Part shown: positions 25,882 through 36,176 of the stretch, in pieces
Position numbering within the stretch: the stretch's first letter is position 1
How the letters are laid out: every line of letters starts with the position of its first letter
NCBI RefSeq assembly: GCF_005885675.1
Contig: NZ_VANR01000001.1
Coordinates: 434,001-498,000 of the forward strand
Length of the DNA stretch: 64,000 nucleotides
Origin: Polaribacter aestuariivivens
GTDB lineage: Bacteria > Bacteroidota > Bacteroidia > Flavobacteriales > Flavobacteriaceae
Reading direction: 5' to 3'
Translations under genes and position numbers: made by a program
Notes under the pieces: model-generated
What the model was told of the DNA's origin: nothing
Seen by the model: the letters and a program-made list of their open reading frames with translations, nothing else
Databases searched by the model: none

Positions 25882-28800
25882 ATGAAAAAATTTATTTTTC
25901 TGGCAATTTGCATGATTTTTTCTGCAAACGCCAAAGTTAATGCACAAAAAAATGCTAACAAAGTTTCTAACGAATATTTTAGCGCAGTAGAATGGCGAAA
26001 TATTGGTCCTTTTAGAGGAGGAAGAAGTGCTGCTGTTACTGGAGTTTCAAACAAAGCGAACCTTTTTTACATGGGCGCAACTGGAGGTGGTGTTTGGAAA
26101 ACTACAGATGCTGGTAACACTTGGCAAAATATTTCTGACGGATTTTTTGGAGGTTCAGTTGGTTCTGTAGCCGTTTCTGAATCGGATAATAATGTAATTT
26201 ATGTTGGAATGGGAGAAAAAACCGTTCGTGGAAATGTTTCTTCTGGAGATGGAATTTGGAAATCGGAAAATGCAGGAAAAACTTGGAAACATATAGGTTT
26301 AAAAAATTCACGCCACATTCCAAGAATGAGAATTCATCCTAAAAACCCAGATATTGTTTTTGCAGGAGTTATGGGAGATTTATACAAACCAACGCAAGAA
26401 AGAGGTGTTTACAAATCTATTGATGGTGGAGAAAACTGGAAAAAAGTGTTGTTTTCTGATGAAAATTCTGGAGTTGTAGATTTAATAATTGATCCAAATA
26501 ACCCAAGAATTTTATACGCTACAACTTGGGATGTTCGCAGAACTCCTTATAGTTTATCTTCTGGCGGAAAAGGTTCTGCTATGTTTAAAAGTACAGATGA
26601 AGGAGAAACTTGGACCAACATTTCTGCAAATAAAGGTTTACCAAAAGGTATTTGGGGAATTTCTGGGGTAACTGTTTCACCAGTAAATTCTGATATTGTT
26701 TGGGCCTTAATTGAAAATGAAAAAGGTGGTGTATACAAATCTACAGATGCTGGAAAAACTTGGCATTTGATAAATTCTGAAAGAAAATTACGTCAAAGAG
26801 CTTGGTATTATACACGTTTATATGCAGATACACAAGATGAAGATATTTTATATGTGCTGAATGTTCGTTACCACAAATCTACAGATGGTGGAAAAACATA
26901 TTCTACTTACAATGCACCTCATGGAGATCATCACGATTTATGGATTGCTCCAGAAGACAACCAAAGAATGATAATTGGAGATGATGGAGGAGCACAAATT
27001 TCTTTTGATGCTGGTGAAAATTGGAGTACGTATATGAATCAGCCAACTTCGCAATTTTACAGAGTAACTACAGATAATCATTTTCCATACAGAATTTTAG
27101 CTGCACAACAAGACAATTCAACCGTTAGAATTGCTCATAGAACAGATGGTGGTTTTATTACAGAATCTGATTGGGAATCTACTGCAGGTGGAGAAAGTGC
27201 ACACATTGCTGTAGATCCTTTAGATGATGATATTGTTTATGGAGGAAGTTATGGTGGTTTGTTAACCAGAAAAAACCATAAAACAGGAGAAACTAGAGCT
27301 ATAAACGTTTGGCCAGATGATCCCATGGGTCATGGAGCTGAAGATTTTAAATATCGTTTTCAATGGAACTTTCCAATTTTCTTTTCGCCAAATAATAAAA
27401 AACGTTTGTATGCAGCTTCTAATCATTTGCACGTAACAGAAAATGAAGGACAATCTTGGAAATTAATTAGTCCAGATTTAACAAGAAACGACCCAGAAAC
27501 TTTAAAATCTTCTGGTGGTCCAATTACACAAGATAATACTGGTGTAGAATATTATGGAACTATTTTCGCTGCTACAGAATCGCCTTACGAACCTGGTTTA
27601 ATTTGGACGGGTTCAGATGATGGTTTAGTGCATGTTTCTAAAAATAATGGCGATTCTTGGGACAATGTAACTCCAAAGAAAATGCCAGAATGGATGATGA
27701 TTAACTGCATTGAAGTAGATCCGTTTACAAAAGGTGGTGCTTATATTGCAGGAACAAAATACAAATCTGGAGATTACAAACCTTACATCTACAAAACAGA
27801 AAATTACGGAAAGTCTTGGAAATTAATTGTAGATGGAATTGGAAACGAAGATTTTACAAGAGCTTTAAGAGCAGACCCAAAACGTAAAGGCTTGTTATAT
27901 GCTGGAACAGAAAAAGGTATGTATATTTCGTTTAATGATGGAAAAAATTGGGAAACTTTTCAGCAAAATTTACCTATTGTACCTATTACAGATTTAGCCA
28001 TTAAAAACGATAATTTAATTGCTGCAACACAAGGTCGTTCACTTTGGATTATTGATGATTTAACACCAATTCATCAGCTAACAAAAGCAACAGAAAAAGA
28101 TGTTTTCTTATACAAACCAAAAGATGCTTATAATATGAGTGGTGGTCGTGGAAGAACTTCGAGAACTGCTGGTACAAATCATCCTGGAGGTGTTGCTGTA
28201 AATTATTTTATCAAAGAAAAAGAAGAAAAAGAGGTTGTTTCTTTATCTTTTTATGATGCAAACGATAATCTTATTAAAAAATATTCTACGAAACCAGATA
28301 AAGAAAAGAAAGAAGAAACTTTAAAAGTAAAAGACGGAAATAATATTTTCTATTGGAACATGATGTATCCTGGAGCCGAATCTGTAAAAGGAATGATTCT
28401 TTGGTGGGCTTCTTTAAGTGGACCAATGGCTTTGCCAGGGAATTACAAGGTAGAATTGGCTGTGAATGATAAAAAAATGACTCAGAATTTTAATATTTTG
28501 AGAAATCCAACTTCGGAAGCTACAGAAAGTGATATGAAAGCTCAGTTTGATTTTATTAACGACATCAATACAAAAATGACAGAGATTCATAAAGCATTAA
28601 AAAACGTAAAGAAAGTTAGAAGTCAAGTTGGGTTGTTAAAAAAAGCTATCAAAGACAAAGAAAAACACAAAGCGTTGTTAGAATATGCTGATACTTTGGT
28701 AAAAGACATGACCAAAATTGAAGAAACGTTGTATCAAACAAAATCTAAAAGTGGGCAAGATCCTTTAAATTACCCTATTCGTTTAAATAATAAATTGGCA

Positions 28801-28986
28801 CATTTAAATTCTTTAACCAGAATTGGAAATTATGCTCCAACACAACAAGCCATTGATTTTAAAAATGAAATCACCAAAGACATTGATGCTGAATTGACAA
28901 AACTAAATGCCTTGTTTGTAAATGGTGTAAGAGAATTAAACCAAAAAGTAAAAGAAAGCAATATTGATTTGATCCAGTTGGATTAA
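25882..28986 (+). CDS. Secreted VPS10/BNR-type beta-propeller protein
   Basis: I place the start at 25882 (MKKFIFLAICMIFSANA), because that gives a clean signal peptide ending near VNAQ; the frame is open for 16 codons more upstream. The 1034-residue chain contains many BNR/sortilin-like blades with the pattern (S)(T/E)DAG-(T/K/N)TW (for example KTTDAGNTW, KSIDGGENW, KSTDEGETW, KSTDAGKTW), forming one or two propellers over roughly residues 40-720. The last 300 residues are a non-propeller region (GGRGRTSRTAGTNHPGG, then KNVKKVRSQVG helices). Such proteins are often called glycosyl hydrolases, but no catalytic residues are evident, so function is open. Confidence 0.8.
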   Translation: MKKFIFLAICMIFSANAKVNAQKNANKVSNEYFSAVEWRNIGPFRGGRSAAVTGVSNKANLFYMGATGGGVWKTTDAGNTWQNISDGFFGGSVGSVAVSESDNNVIYVGMGEKTVRGNVSSGDGIWKSENAGKTWKHIGLKNSRHIPRMRIHPKNPDIVFAGVMGDLYKPTQERGVYKSIDGGENWKKVLFSDENSGVVDLIIDPNNPRILYATTWDVRRTPYSLSSGGKGSAMFKSTDEGETWTNISANKGLPKGIWGISGVTVSPVNSDIVWALIENEKGGVYKSTDAGKTWHLINSERKLRQRAWYYTRLYADTQDEDILYVLNVRYHKSTDGGKTYSTYNAPHGDHHDLWIAPEDNQRMIIGDDGGAQISFDAGENWSTYMNQPTSQFYRVTTDNHFPYRILAAQQDNSTVRIAHRTDGGFITESDWESTAGGESAHIAVDPLDDDIVYGGSYGGLLTRKNHKTGETRAINVWPDDPMGHGAEDFKYRFQWNFPIFFSPNNKKRLYAASNHLHVTENEGQSWKLISPDLTRNDPETLKSSGGPITQDNTGVEYYGTIFAATESPYEPGLIWTGSDDGLVHVSKNNGDSWDNVTPKKMPEWMMINCIEVDPFTKGGAYIAGTKYKSGDYKPYIYKTENYGKSWKLIVDGIGNEDFTRALRADPKRKGLLYAGTEKGMYISFNDGKNWETFQQNLPIVPITDLAIKNDNLIAATQGRSLWIIDDLTPIHQLTKATEKDVFLYKPKDAYNMSGGRGRTSRTAGTNHPGGVAVNYFIKEKEEKEVVSLSFYDANDNLIKKYSTKPDKEKKEETLKVKDGNNIFYWNMMYPGAESVKGMILWWASLSGPMALPGNYKVELAVNDKKMTQNFNILRNPTSEATESDMKAQFDFINDINTKMTEIHKALKNVKKVRSQVGLLKKAIKDKEKHKALLEYADTLVKDMTKIEETLYQTKSKSGQDPLNYPIRLNNKLAHLNSLTRIGNYAPTQQAIDFKNEITKDIDAELTKLNALFVNGVRELNQKVKESNIDLIQLD

Positions 28987-29007
28987 TTTTCAAGGAAAAA
29001 AGTAAAT

Positions 29008-29043
29008 AAAAAAGAAGTAATAGTTTTATTGCTTCTTTTTTTT
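29008..29043 (+). terminator. Rho-independent terminator after the BNR-propeller gene
   Basis: The stem AAGAAGTAATA pairs with TATTGCTTCTT (one G-U pair) across a short loop and is followed by a run of eight T. It starts 22 bases after the stop. Confidence 0.75.
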
Positions 29044-29072
29044 AAATTTACGGCAAAAATCAAATCATTTAA

Positions 29073-29690
29073 ATGAAAAAGAAAGTCATTTTTACGTTTA
29101 TTCTTTTTATAATAATTGTACTATCCAGTCAAATTATTTTTCATTTTGATATTAAAAGACAATATTATGATGCCGAAATAATTAACAAAACTGGTAAACA
29201 AAGAATGTTTAGCCAAAAATTAACTAAAATAGCTTTACTTGCTAACAATGCTATAAATACTGATGATTTTTCATCAAAAATAAATGACTTTGAAGAAAGT
29301 TTTAAAAACTTTACTGACGGAAATCATTACATAAATAACATTGACTTAGATTTTTATGAAAGTCCTTATTTAGTTGATTTATATAAAACCAACAACCTTT
29401 ATTTCAGTACATTAGAAACAGCATCTTTAGCTATTATAAACGATGCTACAAATCAAGAAACGTTTCGTAATAATTTAAAAGTAATAATTAACAACGAAGA
29501 GCAGTTTTTGAACTCGATGGATAAAATAGTGAATGAATACCAAAAAATATCTGAAAGGAAAATATCAAACTTCGAAAAAATTCAATTATTTTACAATTTA
29601 GGTACGCTCGTATTACTTTTTTATGTGCTGTTTTTTATTATCATACCATTGTTTAAACAAAATGGCAAATTTACTGGCAAAATAAACTAA
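29073..29690 (+). CDS. Membrane protein with a PilJ/NarX-type (NIT-like) sensor domain, no output domain
   Basis: The 205-residue protein has helix 1 at about 5-24 and helix 2 at about 176-196, leaving a periplasmic domain of about 150 residues between them. That domain begins YYDAEIINKTGKQRMFSQKL, matching the (S/T)GxQRMxSQ signature (41-50) of the type IV pili methyl-accepting chemotaxis/nitrate-sensor N-terminal domain. In known sensors this domain is followed by HAMP and kinase, cyclase or chemotaxis modules. Here the chain ends 9 residues after helix 2, and the next gene is on the other strand, so no output is encoded. It could signal through a partner or be a remnant. Confidence 0.7.
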   Translation: MKKKVIFTFILFIIIVLSSQIIFHFDIKRQYYDAEIINKTGKQRMFSQKLTKIALLANNAINTDDFSSKINDFEESFKNFTDGNHYINNIDLDFYESPYLVDLYKTNNLYFSTLETASLAIINDATNQETFRNNLKVIINNEEQFLNSMDKIVNEYQKISERKISNFEKIQLFYNLGTLVLLFYVLFFIIIPLFKQNGKFTGKIN

Positions 29691-29692
29691 TT

Positions 29693-29941
29693 CTATTTCA
29701 TTTTTTTACTGGTAACCCAAATACCATAAAAAACACTGATTACAATTTTTAAACCCCAAAAAGTTTTCCATTTTCCATTGGCAAAATTTACCTCGTTTAC
29801 TTTTGCAAAATCACCTGCAAAAATTTCTCGCCAAGAGTTCATAAATAACGAAATTAAAGTTACTAAAATGAAAAAAGGAATGGCAACTTTTGCAAAATTA
29901 GACCAGAAAAGTGGTTGTTTTATTTTTTGTAAAAAAGTCAT
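29693..29941 (-). CDS. Small membrane protein, unknown
   Basis: This 82-residue protein has two hydrophobic segments (about 13-33 and 60-76) separated by a short polar part, and a basic C-terminus (SKKMK). I do not recognise a named family. It follows mazG by a single base, so it is very likely cotranscribed and translationally coupled with it. Length and clean packing support a real gene. Confidence 0.6.
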   Translation of the reverse strand: MTFLQKIKQPLFWSNFAKVAIPFFILVTLISLFMNSWREIFAGDFAKVNEVNFANGKWKTFWGLKIVISVFYGIWVTSKKMK

Positions 29942-29942
29942 T

Positions 29943-30269
29943 TTATTTTAATTTTTGGTTGTTGTGATGGCGATTGTGATCGCGTTTTGTTTTAATATCT
30001 AATTTCTTCTCAAAAGCATCTTGCAAATCGATTCCTGTTTGGTTTGCCAAACATAAAACTACGAAAAGTACATCTGCCAATTCTTCGCCTAAATCTTTAT
30101 TTTTATCCGATTCTTTTTCACTTTGTTCTCCATAACGTCTTGCAATTATTCTTGCTACTTCACCTACTTCTTCCGTTAATTGTGCCATGTTTGTTAATTC
30201 ATTAAAATAACGAACTCCGTGATTTTTAATCCAATCGTCTACCTGTTGTTGTGCGTTTTCTATGTTCAT
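29943..30269 (-). CDS. MazG-type nucleotide pyrophosphohydrolase
   Basis: A 108-residue single-domain MazG-like enzyme. The metal-binding pattern of all-alpha NTP pyrophosphatases is visible: EEVGEVARIIARR (about 29-41) and GEELADVLFVVLCLANQTGIDL (about 66-87), that is E-x-x-E and E-x-x-D. It would hydrolyse non-canonical or excess (d)NTPs to NMP and pyrophosphate. It is the gene next to the left border of the integron-like cassette, on the opposite strand to the cassette genes. Nothing ties it functionally to them, though a nucleotide-handling enzyme beside a RelA/SpoT-like gene is worth noting. Confidence 0.85.
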   Translation of the reverse strand: MNIENAQQQVDDWIKNHGVRYFNELTNMAQLTEEVGEVARIIARRYGEQSEKESDKNKDLGEELADVLFVVLCLANQTGIDLQDAFEKKLDIKTKRDHNRHHNNQKLK

Positions 30270-30289
30270 TTTTTGTAGTTTCAGAATTA

Positions 30290-30297
30290 CAAAGTTA
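30290..30297 (-). promoter_or_regulatory. Candidate -7 promoter element for mazG
   Basis: Reverse strand TAACTTTG matches TAnnTTTG, 20 bases before the ATG at 30269. No TTG box at the expected distance. Confidence 0.35.
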
Positions 30298-30363
30298 CAA
30301 AGTATAAAAGAGAGTTTTAATAGAATAATTTAGTTTGTATCTAAACTTATTTTCTTATAACTT

Positions 30364-30421
30364 CGCTAACGTCGATTATAAGTCATTAAAACGACGTCAT
30401 AATCGTCTAAAGTTGTATGCC
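30364..30421 (+). repeat. attC-like site at the left border of the cassette
   Basis: The site begins CGCTAAC (30364-30370), fitting the inverse-core shape RYYYAAC loosely, and ends with GTTGTATGCC (30412-30421) in the core-site position. Between them is an inverted repeat: CGATTAT (30373-30379) with ATAATCG (30399-30405), extended inward by GTC on each arm with one unpaired base, as in folded attC sites with extrahelical bases. Its start box is the exact reverse complement of GTTAGCG at 33241-33247, on the far side of the cassette. That is what insertion of a cassette into an older attC-like site would leave. Confidence 0.55.
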
Positions 30422-30468
30422 ATTTATGAAAAAACCGATTGAAATAAAGAAAAAAACAAAATCAAAAT

Positions 30469-31968
30469 ATGAGTTTAATAGAAAATGAACTTTCAAAAAT
30501 TGATTTTATAGTAACACAATTTGATAGTGATCGAAATGTCGATTATAAATCTAATATGGAAAATATTACTAATAAAATTAAAGTCATAATTGACAAGTTT
30601 GCAAAATCTTACAGATTGGTTTCTTCTAACAGTGTAAGAGATATAAAACACTATACTTTTATTTCAAGAATAAAGGAATCAGAAAGTTTAAGAGAAAAAT
30701 TCGTCAGAAATAATTTACATATACCATTTAATGAATTTATTGACAGCGAGTTTGACACAGAAGATCCAGATTTAATCCAAAATGTAAAAAAAACTCTACT
30801 TAAAATTGACGACCTTATTGGTATTAAAATTTTAACTGATTTAGATACAGATTGTGCAAAAATGTTTGAATTAATTAAATCTTCAGAGTTTGAAAAAGCA
30901 GCAAAAGCACAAGATATAGTTCTGAATAAAGAAGATATCTTAAAGCAGCCAGTTTCAATGAAAAATGGATTGAAGATTTATAAAATTAAAGGGACATTTG
31001 ATAAATTTAATTTTGAATTACAGATAAAAAGTAAAATAATCTCTGCCTGGGGAGATATGGAACACTCAATATTTTATAAAGACTACGCTATTTCACCTGT
31101 AAGAGATACGGCTCAGACTTCAATGAACCACGTTGGTAAATTATTATATCAAATAGATGATTTTGTTGAAAGTATTCGAAGTGCAAATAAGGATTATACC
31201 AAGAATGCCAATGCTTTACATTTTTTACAATGGATAGAAACAAATTATAGTCACAAAATAAAAGCCTTACTCAATAATATCAGTTATGGCTTCAATAGTA
31301 TTTCTGAACTTTTATATGCTGTTTATAATCATCTTAAAATTTCAGATGAAGTAGCTAAAAATGAATTAAAGTTTAATCATTTTCATTTAACCATTGCTAA
31401 TGATGGTATTTCTAAACAATATTTAAATTCTAGAAATGAGATATTTGAATTTAAAATTTTAGAATCAATAGTTCAAAGTTGGCTACTAAAAGAACAAAAC
31501 ATAAATCAAGATAATTTACTTGAGAACACAAATATTTTCATAAACACCTTAATAGATTCAACATCTGAATTTTTAATAGTTACCAATACAGGTTATGATT
31601 TTGATGAAATGAAAGAGTTAGTTACTAATTATTATGAAATTGGTTTATCTTTTGAATGTTCTGCAAAATTTATACTTAACCTCAAAAAATTAAATAACTT
31701 TTTAGAGTTAACTTATATATTAAATGATTTATCTGAAGGATTGCTCGAATCAAACAAATTAGCCTTAATTAAGAATTGTGTATTTATTCAAAATTATGAT
31801 GGTGATATAAACAAATACGTTGATACCAATCCATTGAATGTAGATAAAAACAATTTAAAACTAATCGTAATTCAAATGATCGATGAGCTTAAGAAAAACT
31901 CAAAGAAAGAAAAAAAATTCGATCAATTAATGAAGTCTTTACAAAAAATAAACGATTCAATAAACTAA
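30469..31968 (+). CDS. RelA/SpoT-like nucleotide pyrophosphotransferase domain protein
   Basis: The 499-residue protein carries a synthetase-type RelA/SpoT domain at about 35-240. ISRIKESESLREK (from about 65) matches the R-x-K-x-x-x-S-(I/L)-x-x-K region; DDLIGIKIL (about 114) is the D-x-x-G-x-(R/K) motif; FELQIKS (about 182) has the catalytic-type Glu in E-(I/L)-Q-(I/V)-(R/K); AWGDMEHSIFYK matches the W-x-x-(L/M)-EH-x-x-(F/Y)K that follows. There is no HD hydrolase domain and no TGS/ACT. The C-terminal 260 residues are helical and unrecognised. Relatives make (p)ppGpp or (p)ppApp, or pyrophosphorylate tRNA as toxins. It pairs with the DGQHR gene 1 base downstream. Confidence 0.75.
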   Translation: MSLIENELSKIDFIVTQFDSDRNVDYKSNMENITNKIKVIIDKFAKSYRLVSSNSVRDIKHYTFISRIKESESLREKFVRNNLHIPFNEFIDSEFDTEDPDLIQNVKKTLLKIDDLIGIKILTDLDTDCAKMFELIKSSEFEKAAKAQDIVLNKEDILKQPVSMKNGLKIYKIKGTFDKFNFELQIKSKIISAWGDMEHSIFYKDYAISPVRDTAQTSMNHVGKLLYQIDDFVESIRSANKDYTKNANALHFLQWIETNYSHKIKALLNNISYGFNSISELLYAVYNHLKISDEVAKNELKFNHFHLTIANDGISKQYLNSRNEIFEFKILESIVQSWLLKEQNINQDNLLENTNIFINTLIDSTSEFLIVTNTGYDFDEMKELVTNYYEIGLSFECSAKFILNLKKLNNFLELTYILNDLSEGLLESNKLALIKNCVFIQNYDGDINKYVDTNPLNVDKNNLKLIVIQMIDELKKNSKKEKKFDQLMKSLQKINDSIN

Positions 31969-31969
31969 T

Positions 31970-33106
31970 ATGGAATTCTCAATAATAAAATATAAACAGA
32001 ATGATCACGAATTAATTTCAACTGTATTACCATTTGAAATAATTAATGAATCAAGTAAAGTATTAGTTTACGGTCAAGACGAAGGCGGTTATCAAAGAGA
32101 ACCTGATTTAAATCACTACAGTAAAATAACTAAATATATTAATGAAGATAAGGCTTTTATTTTTCCAACTTCCATAATTTTAGGTGTTGATAAAAATTCA
32201 ATAGATAAAATTACATCTAAGGATGAAACCAAAATTTCTATTAATAAAAAGGATTTTGATTTATTTAGAATCATTGATGGGCAACATAGGATAAAAGGAA
32301 TTGAAAAAGCATTAATTGATAATCCAGAATTAAAAGACTTAATGCTAAATGTTACGATTCTAATTACACCTCAAAACAAAAGGTCAATGGAGATGGAGAT
32401 ATTTAACACCATTAATTCTAAAAGCAAAAGAATAAAAGTTGACTTGATTAGACTAGCAAGTTTTGAATATAGAATACTAGAAAATAATATCAAATACTCT
32501 GATTTAAATGAACATATCTCAGTACAGATAGCTCACTATTTAAATGAAGATAATTCTAAAAGAAATAAGTGGTTAAATGCGATTAAATTCGGGATTCACG
32601 AAGAACAAAAAATTGGAATAATTGGAGTCAATGCATTTATCGAATCTATTAAAAAGATTGTAAATCGATATCTTGAAAGTAAAGATTATAAAAACTTAAA
32701 AGGTAAAGAATTAATTAATTTTTCGAAAGAATCTGCACTTAGTATTAAGGAATTTATATTAGATGCTTGGACAATCGTATACGAAAAATGGCCTGATTCA
32801 TTTTCAAGCAGTTATGATATGGAATTTGATACTGAAATAAAGCAATTCTATTATAGAAATAATTATTATATACAAAAAACACTTGGAACTAAAGCAATTA
32901 ATTATCTTTTAGGAAATATTGTAAATGAATCAGCAAACTCAAGTTTGGATGGAAAAAGTCTAGATAAGTTTAGTGAGTTTATTAACACATCACATCTATT
33001 AAATAAAGATTGGAAATTAGGCGAAACGTTTAGTGGATATAGTTCAGAATCTGCCTTCAATAAAGTAAGTAAGATGATAACAGGAGAATTAGAAATACCT
33101 AGATAA
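31970..33106 (+). CDS. DGQHR-domain protein (DndB/DpdB-like)
   Basis: The 378-residue protein holds the family signature IIDGQHRIKGIEKAL with DGQHR at about 102-106, followed by ITPQNKRSMEMEIFNTINSKSKRI, where the F-x-x-I-N-(S/T)-K-x-(K/T)-x-(I/V) run is also typical. DGQHR proteins include DndB, the repressor-like member of phosphorothioation loci, and DpdB of 7-deazaguanine DNA modification loci; they are related to ParB-like folds. No modification genes lie nearby. The gene starts 1 base after the RelA/SpoT-like gene, so the pair is translationally linked. It may be the control or immunity partner of that gene; this is inference. Confidence 0.8.
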   Translation: MEFSIIKYKQNDHELISTVLPFEIINESSKVLVYGQDEGGYQREPDLNHYSKITKYINEDKAFIFPTSIILGVDKNSIDKITSKDETKISINKKDFDLFRIIDGQHRIKGIEKALIDNPELKDLMLNVTILITPQNKRSMEMEIFNTINSKSKRIKVDLIRLASFEYRILENNIKYSDLNEHISVQIAHYLNEDNSKRNKWLNAIKFGIHEEQKIGIIGVNAFIESIKKIVNRYLESKDYKNLKGKELINFSKESALSIKEFILDAWTIVYEKWPDSFSSSYDMEFDTEIKQFYYRNNYYIQKTLGTKAINYLLGNIVNESANSSLDGKSLDKFSEFINTSHLLNKDWKLGETFSGYSSESAFNKVSKMITGELEIPR

Positions 33107-33113
33107 AAAAAAC

Positions 33114-33247
33114 GGCATACAACAATGGCTATAAGTAATTGCTTATTCTCGCCTACTTCTGAAAATCCTCGCGGATTTTCAGCTTGGTGTGTACTTGCAA
33201 AGTTAAGTGCTAACCCACGCAACTACTCATAGCCGAGACCGTTAGCG
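33114..33247 (+). repeat. attC-like site at the right border of the cassette (134 bp)
   Basis: The element begins GGCATACAAC and ends in GTTAGCG. Its arms GGCTATAAGTAATTGC (33127-33142) and GCAACTACTCATAGCC (33219-33234) pair at 14 of 16 positions. Inside lies a perfect 10-bp stem, CTGAAAATCC (33159-33168), loop TCGC, GGATTTTCAG (33173-33182). The whole folds into a long imperfect hairpin like a large attC site. The internal stem could also act as the terminator of the cassette genes, though it has no T run. Confidence 0.55.
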
Positions 33248-33258
33248 AAACTCAAAAA

Positions 33259-33813
33259 TCACTTCCATTTAATTCCACAACCAACACTTGGCTTTTGATT
33301 TTCTAAAACAGGTTTATTTTGCAACAAATTATCTAAAGCATTTCTTATATCTTTTCCTGTTAATGGTACTCCATTATTGGGTCTGGAATTGTCTAATTGT
33401 CCATGATAAACAGCTAATAAATTTTCATCAAACACATAAAAATCTGGTGTACAAGCAGCATCGTAATTTTTTGCTACTTCTTGAGTTTCATCAAACAAAT
33501 ACGGAAAAGGATAATGTAACTTTTGGGCAACTTGCTTCATAAATTTTGGAGCATCTTGAGGGTAATTTTCAATCTCATTAGAGCTTATGGCTATAAAACC
33601 AATTCCTTTTTGTTGGTATTCATTCGCCATTTTTACCAACTCATTATTTACGTGAATTACAAACGGACAATGATTACAGATAAACATAATTACAGTTCCT
33701 TTTTGGCCTTTTGTCTCGGTTAAAGAAACCATTTTATCGTTTACTGTGTTTCGTAAAGTAAAATCGGGCGCTTTTGTTCCCATTGGAAAATTATTGGATT
33801 CTGTTAATGCCAT
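33259..33813 (-). CDS. Thioredoxin-like redoxin (AhpC/TSA-type) protein
   Basis: The 184-residue cytoplasmic protein starts with the redoxin strand GTKAPDFTLRNTV and has an active-site CNHC pair at C46 and C49 (FICNHCPFV), then FIAISSNE, KNYDAACTPDFYVFD and the cis-Pro segment PDFYVFD. The end GCGIKWK is characteristic of this Bacteroidota/cyanobacterial redoxin subfamily. It is predicted to be a thiol peroxidase or thiol-disulphide exchanger; the partner is unknown. Its stop lies 12 bases from the right end of the cassette, so it converges with the cassette genes. Confidence 0.85.
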   Translation of the reverse strand: MALTESNNFPMGTKAPDFTLRNTVNDKMVSLTETKGQKGTVIMFICNHCPFVIHVNNELVKMANEYQQKGIGFIAISSNEIENYPQDAPKFMKQVAQKLHYPFPYLFDETQEVAKNYDAACTPDFYVFDENLLAVYHGQLDNSRPNNGVPLTGKDIRNALDNLLQNKPVLENQKPSVGCGIKWK

Positions 33814-33868
33814 AATTATGGTTTTTGGTTTTAGTTGTTTGTTTTTAGTCTTTCATTCGGACTTTATG

Positions 33869-33932
33869 GAGAAATCTAATATAAAAAAATAATTTTTAGA
33901 TTTCTCAACTCCATTTCACTTCACATGAAGTG
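33869..33932. repeat. Two inverted repeats between redoxin and flavoprotein genes
   Basis: GAGAAATCTAA (33869-33879) and TTAGATTTCTC (33896-33906) are a perfect 11-bp inverted repeat around an AT-rich loop. Next to it CACTTCA (33917-33923) and TGAAGTG (33926-33932) form a second perfect palindrome. This fills the short gap upstream of the redoxin gene and downstream of the flavoprotein gene, where a terminator for the latter would be expected. Confidence 0.45.
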
Positions 33933-33943
33933 ACAATCGTATT

Positions 33944-35158
33944 TTATGATTCTTCTGCTAGGGCTTTTGCACAAATAAAACCACCTGTCCACGCATTTTG
34001 GAAGTTGAAACCGCCAGTTACAGCATCAATATTTAAAACTTCTCCAACGAAAAAGAGGTTTTTGTGTTTTCTACTTTCAAATCGTTTAAAATTAATTTCT
34101 TTTAAATCGATTCCTCCTGCAGTTACAAACTCATCTTTAAACGTAGTTCTGCCATTTGCATTATACACTCCTTTTGTAAGTTGGTTTGCCAAATTTTCTA
34201 ATTGGCGAGAATTTAAATCTGCCCAATTATGAGTTGCACTGATGTCTGAAAACTTAACAAAACGCTCCCATAATCTTTTTGAAATTTCAACAAAAGGCGA
34301 TTTTAATATCACTGTTTTTCGAGGTTCTTTCTTTTTCAAATTCAATAAAACATTTAAAATTTTATCAGTAGGTCTAGAAAGCCAATTTACTTCAACATTA
34401 TATTGGTACTTTTTATCCGCCAAAATTCTTGCACCAAAAGCAGAGAGTTTTAAAACGGCTGGTCCACTCATGCCCCAATGTGTAATTAACAAAGGTCCTG
34501 AAGCTTCTAATTTTGTACCTACAATATTTACAGTTGCATTAGGAACAGAAATACCCAATAAATCTACAATTCTTTTATCGTTGATATTAAACGTGAATAA
34601 TGATGGAACTGGTTCGATTACAGAATGGTTTAAAGTTTCACATAATTCCCAAACCTTTTTAGAACTTCCTGCCGCAATTACTACTTTATCTGCCTTAAAA
34701 ACTTGTTCTTTTGTGTTAACAACCCATTGATTGTCTTGTTGATAAACAGAGTTTACACCATGATTTGTCAACACTTTAATTTCTAACTTTTCAACAGCTT
34801 TTTGGAAGCAATCTATAATTGCTTGACTTGTATTTGCCTCTGGAAAAACACGATTATCATCTTCAATTTTAAGAGGTACTCCTCTATCATCAAACCATTC
34901 AAAAGTATCACCTGTCATAAATTGATGAAAAGGACCTAACAGTTCTTTTTCTCCTCTAGGATAAAATTTCACCAGTTCTTTTGGCTCAAAACAAGCATGT
35001 GTAACATTACATCTTCCTCCTCCAGAAATTTTAACTTTCTGTAAAACATCTTTTCCTTTTTCAAGAATTGTAATGTCCAAATCTGGATTATTTTCTTTCG
35101 CATTTATGGCTGTAAAATATCCTGCTGCTCCTCCTCCAATAATTATTATTTTATTCAT
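33944..35158 (-). CDS. BaiN/HI0933-type FAD-dependent oxidoreductase
   Basis: I start the gene at 35158 (MNKIIIIGGGAAG), placing the FAD-binding GxGxxG directly at the N-terminus. A start nine codons upstream would translate part of a palindromic repeat and is rejected. The 404-residue protein has the HI0933/YhiN family marks: KISGGGRCNVTH, DRGVPLKIEDDNRVFP, ITHWGMSGPAVL, and at the end TAGGIDLKEINFKRFES, LFFVGEVLNIDAVTGGFNFQNAW. The family includes flavoprotein dehydrogenases of unknown substrate and the bile-acid reductase BaiN. Cytoplasmic; single gene. Confidence 0.9.
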   Translation of the reverse strand: MNKIIIIGGGAAGYFTAINAKENNPDLDITILEKGKDVLQKVKISGGGRCNVTHACFEPKELVKFYPRGEKELLGPFHQFMTGDTFEWFDDRGVPLKIEDDNRVFPEANTSQAIIDCFQKAVEKLEIKVLTNHGVNSVYQQDNQWVVNTKEQVFKADKVVIAAGSSKKVWELCETLNHSVIEPVPSLFTFNINDKRIVDLLGISVPNATVNIVGTKLEASGPLLITHWGMSGPAVLKLSAFGARILADKKYQYNVEVNWLSRPTDKILNVLLNLKKKEPRKTVILKSPFVEISKRLWERFVKFSDISATHNWADLNSRQLENLANQLTKGVYNANGRTTFKDEFVTAGGIDLKEINFKRFESRKHKNLFFVGEVLNIDAVTGGFNFQNAWTGGFICAKALAEES

Positions 35159-35171
35159 TTTCTGTATAAAA

Positions 35172-35235
35172 CCTCTCGACTGCACTCGAGGACATATTTA
35201 GTAAGTTAATTGTTAGGTCGAGCGCAGTCGAGATC
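35172..35235. repeat. Palindromic repeat pair left of the GHMP kinase gene
   Basis: CCTCTCGACTGCACTCGAGG (35172-35191) and GGTCGAGCGCAGTCGAGATC (35216-35235) are inverted copies of one GC-richer unit with a 24-base spacer. Each unit is itself an imperfect palindrome (CTCGA...TCGAG). The same unit occurs twice more at 36190-36251. Such short mobile palindromes act as REP-like elements and can form hairpins in the mRNA. Confidence 0.7.
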
Positions 35236-35246
35236 TAAAAAATCTT

Positions 35247-36176
35247 TTATAAAATCATTTGTTTGAAAGTTAAAACAGTTTCAAAGCCTTTATTTTTAAA
35301 ATAAGTTGGTGTTTGTTCATTTCCTGTAACCATTACAAAATCGCCACCCCAAGCACCTAAACTTTTTATTGCTCCAAAATAATCTGGAAATAACTTTTCT
35401 TTTACAGGTTGTAATTTGATGATTGAACTGATAATTTGTTCGTGTTCAACTATTAATTTATTAAATTCTGAAATTGATTTTGCTTCTAAAAATTCTTCTG
35501 AAATTTCAGAAATTCTTTTAATTTCTTTATCAAAATTATTGCCACTTTCTCTAAATTTTGCAATTCCTTCTTTGGAATCTTGTTTCTGATTTAAGTGTAC
35601 AAAAAACAAATTTTCTTTAAAGTTAGGGTTGAAATCAACTTGCTTTACAACAGGTTTTTTGTCTTTAATTAGATAAAAAATGGGCGTATTATTTTGCGCA
35701 CAAGCAATATCATAACCACTTCCTTTAAAAGAATTCCATAACAGTTGAAAAGCATCTACTTTTGCCCAATTTGCAATAGAGTTAATAAGTGTAGATGAAC
35801 TTCCTAAGCCCCAATCTCTTGGAAAAGTAAGTTCCGTTTTTACAAGAAAGCCATTTTCCGATTTTAAAAAAGAGGGATTCATTCTTTTGGCTTCCTTTAA
35901 AATATCTAACAATGTTTCTGCAATTACATCTGCACTTCCTTCTTTACTTGAATTAAATGTAGCTGATATTAAACGCAACTTTTTTAGATCTAAAATAGCT
36001 TCAAACCAACATTCACCTTCATTTGTAAAACTTCCCCAGATAATTTCTGGTTCTTTAATGTTTTCAACAATTACATTTTGCCCAAATTTAGTAGGTAAAG
36101 CTAAAGCTGTTGCACCATCTAAAACAAGGTATTCAGCTGTAAGTAAAAGTTTTCCGTTTGAATAATAATTTTTCAA
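35247..36176 (-). CDS. GYDIA-type GHMP kinase (mevalonate pathway)
   Basis: The 309-residue call uses a TTG start at 36176 (MKNYYSNGKLLLTAEYLVLDGA), because the longer frame to 36257 would translate a palindromic repeat. The protein has the GHMP kinase ATP loop PRDWGLGSSSTLIN, the family name motif GSGYDIACAQ, and FVMVTGNE near the C-terminus. It would phosphorylate mevalonate, phosphomevalonate or a related alcohol. Its position directly after HMG-CoA reductase supports a mevalonate-pathway step. The upstream repeat lies in the leader between the two genes and could form a hairpin that affects translation. Confidence 0.8.
   Translation of the reverse strand: MKNYYSNGKLLLTAEYLVLDGATALALPTKFGQNVIVENIKEPEIIWGSFTNEGECWFEAILDLKKLRLISATFNSSKEGSADVIAETLLDILKEAKRMNPSFLKSENGFLVKTELTFPRDWGLGSSSTLINSIANWAKVDAFQLLWNSFKGSGYDIACAQNNTPIFYLIKDKKPVVKQVDFNPNFKENLFFVHLNQKQDSKEGIAKFRESGNNFDKEIKRISEISEEFLEAKSISEFNKLIVEHEQIISSIIKLQPVKEKLFPDYFGAIKSLGAWGGDFVMVTGNEQTPTYFKNKGFETVLTFKQMIL

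Follow-up and report, generated by a model that had tools for sequence, protein, structure and literature searches.

A gene cassette in an attC-like docking hairpin of Polaribacter aestuariivivens and its probable link to an integron-like recombinase without the IntI-specific domain

Integron cassettes can insert at genomic attG sites, in the chromosome and outside an integron. The term attG is used in PMC12901181, in the part of its text that is available. According to the accessible portion of PMC7790495, integron integrases gained the ability to recombine folded DNA by acquiring the I2 helix, and the accessible text of PMC9668308 states that archaeal integrons have the IntI-specific domain. 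Bacteroidota are listed among the integron-bearing phyla in the available parts of PMC8618304 and PMC9668308, and as the Bacteroidetes/Chlorobi group in that of PMC2426708. A 2022 survey (PMC9024848, available in part) describes integrase-only elements as the earlier record for Bacteroidetes and then one complete integron, that of Salinibacter ruber. Among the literature matches listed, none reported an integron that works with an integrase devoid of the additional domain, preprints and most subscription papers lying outside the coverage. Here we analyse a 64,000-nucleotide window of Polaribacter aestuariivivens (contig NZ_VANR01000001.1, positions 434,001 to 498,000; G000:C1:434001-498000 in our numbering of this 3.17-Mb genome, G000), in which a two-gene unit interrupts a short hairpin. 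As read from its sequence and from those of its relatives, the unit is very probably a gene cassette lodged in an attC-like docking hairpin, likely captured as a circle by an integron-like system whose predicted recombinase is related to XerA and IntI and lacks the IntI-specific domain.

The inserted unit measures 2,829 bp (30413-33241) and splits a 55-bp hairpin at its G/TT core, the slash marking the break. A preliminary description of this stretch, made from the letters alone, had placed four boxes at the borders, and all of them were located where it put them: CGCTAAC at 30364-30370, GTTGTATGCC at 30412-30421, GGCATACAAC at 33114-33123 and GTTAGCG at 33241-33247. The exact 10-base complementarity that it had noted between the start of the unit and its 3′ element is real and extends further, 13 of 14 bases of the start being complementary to the unit's own 3′ site with a sole mismatch at position 11. 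It had also predicted that a site of about 55 bp would close up once the unit is removed; removal in silico gives a 55-bp hairpin, which has uninterrupted counterparts in two relatives. The observation is confirmed. In the attC of the cassette, AAC-N7-AAC is followed by a 3-nt spacer, a 16-position stem (33127-33142 / 33219-33234), a 6-nt spacer and the core GTTAGCG, of which TTAGCG is contributed by the docking site.

A covariance model built from 40 array sites of other loci recovered the right element of the unit with 89.9 bits (E 5.9e-17). This was the only match in the window at E < 0.1, the runner-up reaching E 0.19. Rfam, searched at a permissive threshold over 28000-36000, gave weak matches to unrelated families only. 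By blastn, the right element has 13 matches in its own genome; among the other genomes covered it is found in 21 of 24 from the same genus and in 2 of 15 from the same order. The cassette attC is up to 96% identical to sites in other genomes, and the next best site in its own genome reaches 75%. Since it is nearer to foreign sites than to those of its own genome, these identities suggest that the cassette was likely acquired from outside.

The two genes that flank the unit encode a MazG-like and a TSA-family protein, and were found in 90/97 (E 1e-15) and 63/97 (E 1e-40) genomes of the genus, respectively. We read the interval between them in nine relatives picked for the proximity of the two genes; further loci were retrieved (L122-L125) and have no adjacent MazG gene. 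In two relatives, L121/G065 and L113/G013, the hairpin stands uninterrupted between the same two host genes, and the proteins of L113/G013 are 93% (TSA) and 99% (MazG) identical to those of the window. Other content lies between the flanking genes in five relatives (L114, L115, L116, L117 and L120); the insert of L116 has a clean cassette start and end by eye, and the L115 interval appears rearranged. L118 and L119 contain neither an insert nor a clear hairpin. The preliminary description had proposed that a cassette was added to a pre-existing attC-like site, of which empty copies might survive in relatives and further copies of the elements elsewhere in the genome. Both elements do recur in the genome and two orthologous places keep the hairpin intact. 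The proposed insertion is supported by these empty sites, the other inserts at the same spot, the further element copies and the covariance match of the right element.

The docking hairpin is a member of a family with dispersed copies. Seven of them fit the exact pattern AACTTCGCTAA-N1-12-ATAAGTC in the P. aestuariivivens genome, compared with none for the reversed pattern, and the pattern also occurs in five further genomes of 39 searched, all within the genus. Five of the seven copies are interrupted, a solo attC and then TTAGCGAAA or TTAACGAAA being met 1.4-2.9 kb further on. Counts made by eye give these five starts 7, 7, 7 (here GTT has become ATT), 6 and 5 matching bases out of 7 with their own sites. 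A further eight dispersed attC sites read in this genome are followed by TTAGCGAAA or TTAACGAAA (five), by TTAGCTAAA (one) or by neither (two), and three uninterrupted docking copies were read in G001, G013 and G021. A strict-ends scan for the docking element, run on the loci then in hand, returned one copy only. At G000:C1:382595 and 384350, one docking copy apparently holds two cassettes in a row (two attC matches). Because docking copies are repeatedly interrupted, the window would be one case of repeated cassette loading outside the main array. The left hairpin is another, shorter class of site; it may be an old attC site or a host palindrome, putatively in either case. As a dispersed palindrome it may double as a terminator, and the hairpins might be explained as terminators or REP-like repeats into which the insert came by homologous exchange or transposition. 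We find this scarcely credible, as the break falls at the same G/TT place with unrelated content, in the window and in the other docking copies, the start and end of the unit follow the cassette rule, transposase domains are absent from both cassette genes and inspection by eye reveals no target duplication.

The cassette rule itself was examined with a rule-based site finder run over 12 loci. Sites were confined to one strand per locus, and shuffled sequence yielded at most 0.6 sites per locus. Over the 7 bases that follow GTT, 49 of 62 consecutive site pairs have 6 or 7 matches between the start and its own downstream site, whereas a match to the upstream site was found in 4 of 62; 13 pairs fall short of that own-site match. 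The mean match of start and own site exceeds chance at 5.92, compared with 2.69 for re-dealt partners and a top mean of 3.40 in 2,000 deals. Cassettes exchanged as circles are characterised by a start that complements their own attC, and the unit in the window has this feature as well. Across 154 pairs from arrays of the genus the complementarity covers about 14 nt, with matches at positions 8, 9, 12 and 13 in 88-95% and at position 11 in 1%, the mismatch of the window unit thus being a recurrent one; this set required at least 3/4 matches at positions 4-7, so that those positions are selected. Searching for short attC sites on the loop sequence alone gave too much noise, and we discarded that scan.

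Array sites are hairpins of 128-140 nt with G/TT cores. A set of 250 unique array sites has a left spacer of 3 nt throughout and a right spacer of 6 nt in 233 cases. Stem positions 1-5 are perfect by design of the finder, and Watson-Crick pairing amounts to 84-99% at positions 9-11 and 13-16. Positions 7, 8 and 12 carry mismatches, not bulges: A.C, with A on the left, is present at position 7 in 218 sites, at position 12 in 214 and at position 8 in 86, and G.T is near zero at all three. The two conserved A.C mismatches sit five bases apart and read G.T on the opposite strand. Extrahelical bases were not seen, as the arms pair in step over positions 1-16 without a bulge. A conserved attC hairpin is indicated by covariation: eight of the nine stem pairs unused in site finding changed on both sides, and the covariation score was reached by 0 of 500 shuffles. 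The bottom strand folds more stably in 245/250 sites compared with 100/250 control windows. The core reads GTT[AG] in 248 of 253 array sites, and GTTRRRY in 18 of 253.

The arrays lie beside a tyrosine recombinase of about 390 aa (366-407 aa in 39 of 43 measured). Our set of 43 recombinase loci in the genus combines 11 picked after sites had been seen with 32 taken from a protein-match list, attC being ignored (except for L239). L049, which lacks the recombinase, stands outside this count and was used in the finder, pair and 250-site analyses; L242-L244 were not used in counts. On the recombinase strand 258 sites were found, including a few overlapping double calls, as in L212, versus 2 on the opposite strand. 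The sites lie downstream, and recombinase and cassettes are co-directional. Two or more sites occur in 36 of the 43 loci and in 26 of the 32 from the match list. A first site lies within 4 kb in 34 loci; in 13 of them, 30-42 nt lie between the recombinase stop codon and the start of the first cassette, and ATATAAC[CTG][ACG]GTT precedes 11 of these 13 junctions. This junction has the place and look expected of attI, and we refer to it as attI-like. The array recombinase is Xer-related, its best solved relatives being archaeal XerA, and XerC/XerD might be thought to move the cassettes as dif-like modules. We judge this very improbable. Among the XerD loci covered (20 kb each, same genus), 0 of 37 have two or more sites, with 2 sites in all. 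Furthermore, dif sites are short and two-arm, unlike the long hairpins with G/TT cores, and the array recombinases group apart from XerC/D in the tree described below.

Across the phylum, the covariance model matched 75 of 296 genomes, in 49 of 139 genera. Among 36 genomes reached by way of loci from other phyla it matched none, a control that lacks an in-set known positive, although the same model matched phylum genomes under stricter filters. As named loci we took the best 80 of at least 590 recombinase matches. Seven of these combine the recombinase with linked same-strand sites: Algibacter onchidii, Flavobacteriaceae S0862, Winogradskyella ursingii, a Sphingobacteriales metagenome-assembled genome, Rufibacter sp. 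SYSU D00344, Seonamhaeicola aphaedonensis and Bacteroidetes GWF2_41_31. Together they hold 34 linked sites on the recombinase strand and 0 on the opposite one, with A.C at position 7 in 26 sites and at position 12 in 28. General finders returned linked sites in few of the 80; named loci without arrays may hold short, eroded or other classes of site. On mobile elements, the Persicobacter psychrovividus plasmid pPP2 (L283, 355000-404592) carries 34 candidate attC-like sites on one strand and 0 on the other, lying between small, mostly hypothetical genes. The Flagellimonas marinaquae plasmid NZ_CP092416 (L282) has an attC 93.5% identical to that of the window, in the neighbourhood of an open reading frame (ORF) of the dihydrofolate-reductase family, erm(F) and a recombinase named 'site-specific tyrosine recombinase/integron integrase' in RefSeq. 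Sites of Polaribacter phage P12002L (L284; 38029-38089, 39116-39244 and 32791-32924) bear the same A.C marks. The window attC was not found in phages by blastn.

The recombinase differs from integron integrases in the region of the IntI-specific domain (about 40 aa, I2 helix), where it has 17 residues versus 60 in VchIntIA (2A3V). From the box I Arg motif to HxxR we counted 92-93 residues in 42 of the 43 proteins from the genus (the exception, L215, is truncated) and in 7/7 named array-bearing proteins, versus 134-135 in 9/9 canonical IntI and 98-99 in the 7 of 10 Xer proteins read. In the tree, insert-bearing IntI form one clade (100/100), and 37 Bacteroidota recombinases form another (95/93) apart from XerC/D. 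VIA-align and Foldseek agree on an Xer/IntI fold for the predicted model, which is of moderate quality (pLDDT 81.7, pTM 0.52). The closest sequence family is NF040815, with 219.9 bits against a cut-off of 220. About 90 residues precede the SAM-like domain in aligned array recombinases (e.g. L041:4080-4360), and in three proteins scanned the N-terminus gave no Pfam match at E 0.1.

TIGR02249, the integron integrase model, matches in 97/97 genus genomes and is above its cut-off in 0/97; the IntI-type integrase for which the preliminary description had suggested a search did not turn up over that cut-off. Matched pieces are unusually many in G013 (38), G060 (23) and G071 (37). Alternatively, the cassettes might have been moved by a canonical IntI that a plasmid or phage once carried and that was later lost, the domain-less recombinase having another role. 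In a published assay, IntI1 recombined one Polaribacter phage attC with attI1 (PMC9892861, available in part), and the phage from that assay has A.C-marked sites. We nevertheless consider this origin unlikely, given the TIGR02249 result, the arrays that adjoin the domain-less recombinase and share its strand both in the genus and in the seven named loci of other lineages, the attI-like junctions found at this recombinase and the small share of GTTRRRY cores. Beside nine IntI-type loci, the scan for canonical attC arrays gave one truncated site only, the same site on both strands.

Assuming that the domain-less recombinase works the arrays, it would act at G/TT to join the attC of a circular cassette with one of three partners, namely attI, a second attC or a docking hairpin. 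In the window, a cassette circle would have been joined at G/TT to the docking hairpin. The folded bottom strand of attC would likely be the substrate, and the choice of strand may be made via the A.C pairs, which become G.T on the bottom strand and would replace the classic extrahelical bases. Steps of this scheme that can be read directly are the G/TT boundaries, the empty sites, the own-attC match, the one-strand arrays downstream of the recombinase and, in part of the loci, the attI-like junction. In G000 three tyrosine recombinases were found at E 1e-5, two Xer and the product of C9:350377-351171; since the latter is the only one besides the two Xer, we name it as the putative acting enzyme. 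The G000 array extends to near the contig end.

Several points weigh against this interpretation. Fewer than two sites were found in 7 of the 43 recombinase loci, and a linked pair is missing from 10 of them. For 21 of 34 loci, the first cassette detected begins away from the attI-like place, and the attI-like junction of G000 itself (L041:5226-5281) reads GCT, not GTT, so that its integron may be less active now; the corresponding junction of the G001/L045 copy keeps GTT. Only 7 of the 80 named loci have linked same-strand sites with the stricter finder. Of the two elements that the preliminary description had proposed to run against an attC model, the right one stood, but the short left docking hairpin was not matched. 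At the MazG/TSA spot, L114, L115, L117 and L120 are without a clean match of start and own site. The forks of the tree that join the IntI and Bacteroidota clades are open. Taken together, the IntI1 assay and the A.C marks of the phage mean that sites of this kind could, in principle, serve a canonical IntI as substrates. Finally, the whole case is read from sequences, and no recombination event was observed.

Table 1. Coordinates of the putative cassette, its sites, its genes and the host flanks in the window
Feature	Position	Strand	Details
Putative docking hairpin, left part, AACTTCGCTAAC through G of left G/TT	30359..30412	+	one of seven exact pattern copies in genome; uninterrupted counterparts L121, L113
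Probable cassette, TTGTATGCC through G of right G/TT	30413..33241	+	2829 bp
Putative docking hairpin, right part, TTAGCGAAA	33242..33250	+	TTAGCG complementary to CGCTAA on left
attC-like site of cassette	33111..33247	+	covariance model, blastn, fold
A bases of two conserved A.C mismatches	33133..33138	+	A33133-C33228 (stem position 7); A33138-C33223 (position 12)
Cassette gene 1, 499 aa, RelA_SpoT domain	30469..31968	+	PF04607, residues 66-205, E 9.7e-9
Cassette gene 2, 378 aa, DGQHR / DndB-like	31970..33106	+	TIGR03187 90.4 bits, above cut-off; PF14072
Host flank, MazG-like pyrophosphohydrolase	29943..30269	-	flanking gene
Host flank, AhpC/TSA-family thioredoxin-like protein	33259..33813	-	flanking gene

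Both cassette genes (Table 1) are rare among relatives, which fits a recent arrival of the cassette. Of 395 genomes of the phylum, two have gene 1 (1e-30); gene 2 was found in 1 of 97 genus genomes (1e-30) and 1 of 299 family genomes (1e-40), each time G000 only. Gene 2 was not found in plasmids. PADLOC gave no match for gene 1 and weak DpdB and DndB matches for gene 2. Genes with a RelA_SpoT domain and DGQHR genes form a conserved adjacent pair that recurs in another genus (G552, L314:1495-4104), where they stand in the same order, three bases apart, after an ORF that resembles the end of SecA by eye. It is possible that the pair is a nucleotide-signalling or defence module, putatively.

On a wider view, the data might point to a second kind of integron in Bacteroidota, with an Xer-like recombinase that lacks I2, capture of cassettes in the form of folded single strands, strand reading by A.C/G.T and loading into dispersed chromosomal docking hairpins. 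We regard the arguments for and against this as evenly balanced. If it is true, either the I2 domain is dispensable for integron function or recombination of folded sites arose twice; and if the domain-less recombinase does the same work, the view that ascribes it to the I2 helix becomes directly testable. Such a system, whose site model matches about a quarter of the phylum genomes searched, would escape searches that depend on the IntI domain. If real, it would represent a large, mostly unread store of mobile genes.

Among described systems, the sedentary chromosomal integron of the Vibrio type is alike in its one-strand cassette array, in starts that are mostly complementary to their own attC, in the G/TT core, in an attI-like first junction beside a tyrosine recombinase and in covarying hairpin sites of about 130 nt. 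It is unlike in that the recombinase here has no I2 domain, has some 90 residues before the SAM-like domain and reads toward the array, that the cores are mostly not GTTRRRY, that the spacers are 3 and mostly 6 nt, and that two A.C stem mismatches are present with no bulged base in positions 1-16. Clusters of attC sites lacking integrases (CALIN) and integrase-free single attC sites, including those of phage P12002L in the available part of PMC9892861, resemble the present case as isolated attC-bounded cassettes, the phage having the same A.C marks; here, however, the solo cassettes sit in one dispersed hairpin family of a genome in which an array and the domain-less recombinase also occur. 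Archaeal XerA and NF040815 ('site-specific tyrosine recombinase/integron integrase') provide the best solved structures and the closest sequence family, but the recombinase here stands beside attI-like junctions and attC arrays in Bacteroidota, and the family name alone is no proof of function. Cassette insertion at genomic attG sites likewise places cassettes in the chromosome outside an integron, whereas the cassettes here target a conserved hairpin that is repeated and has a core of its own.

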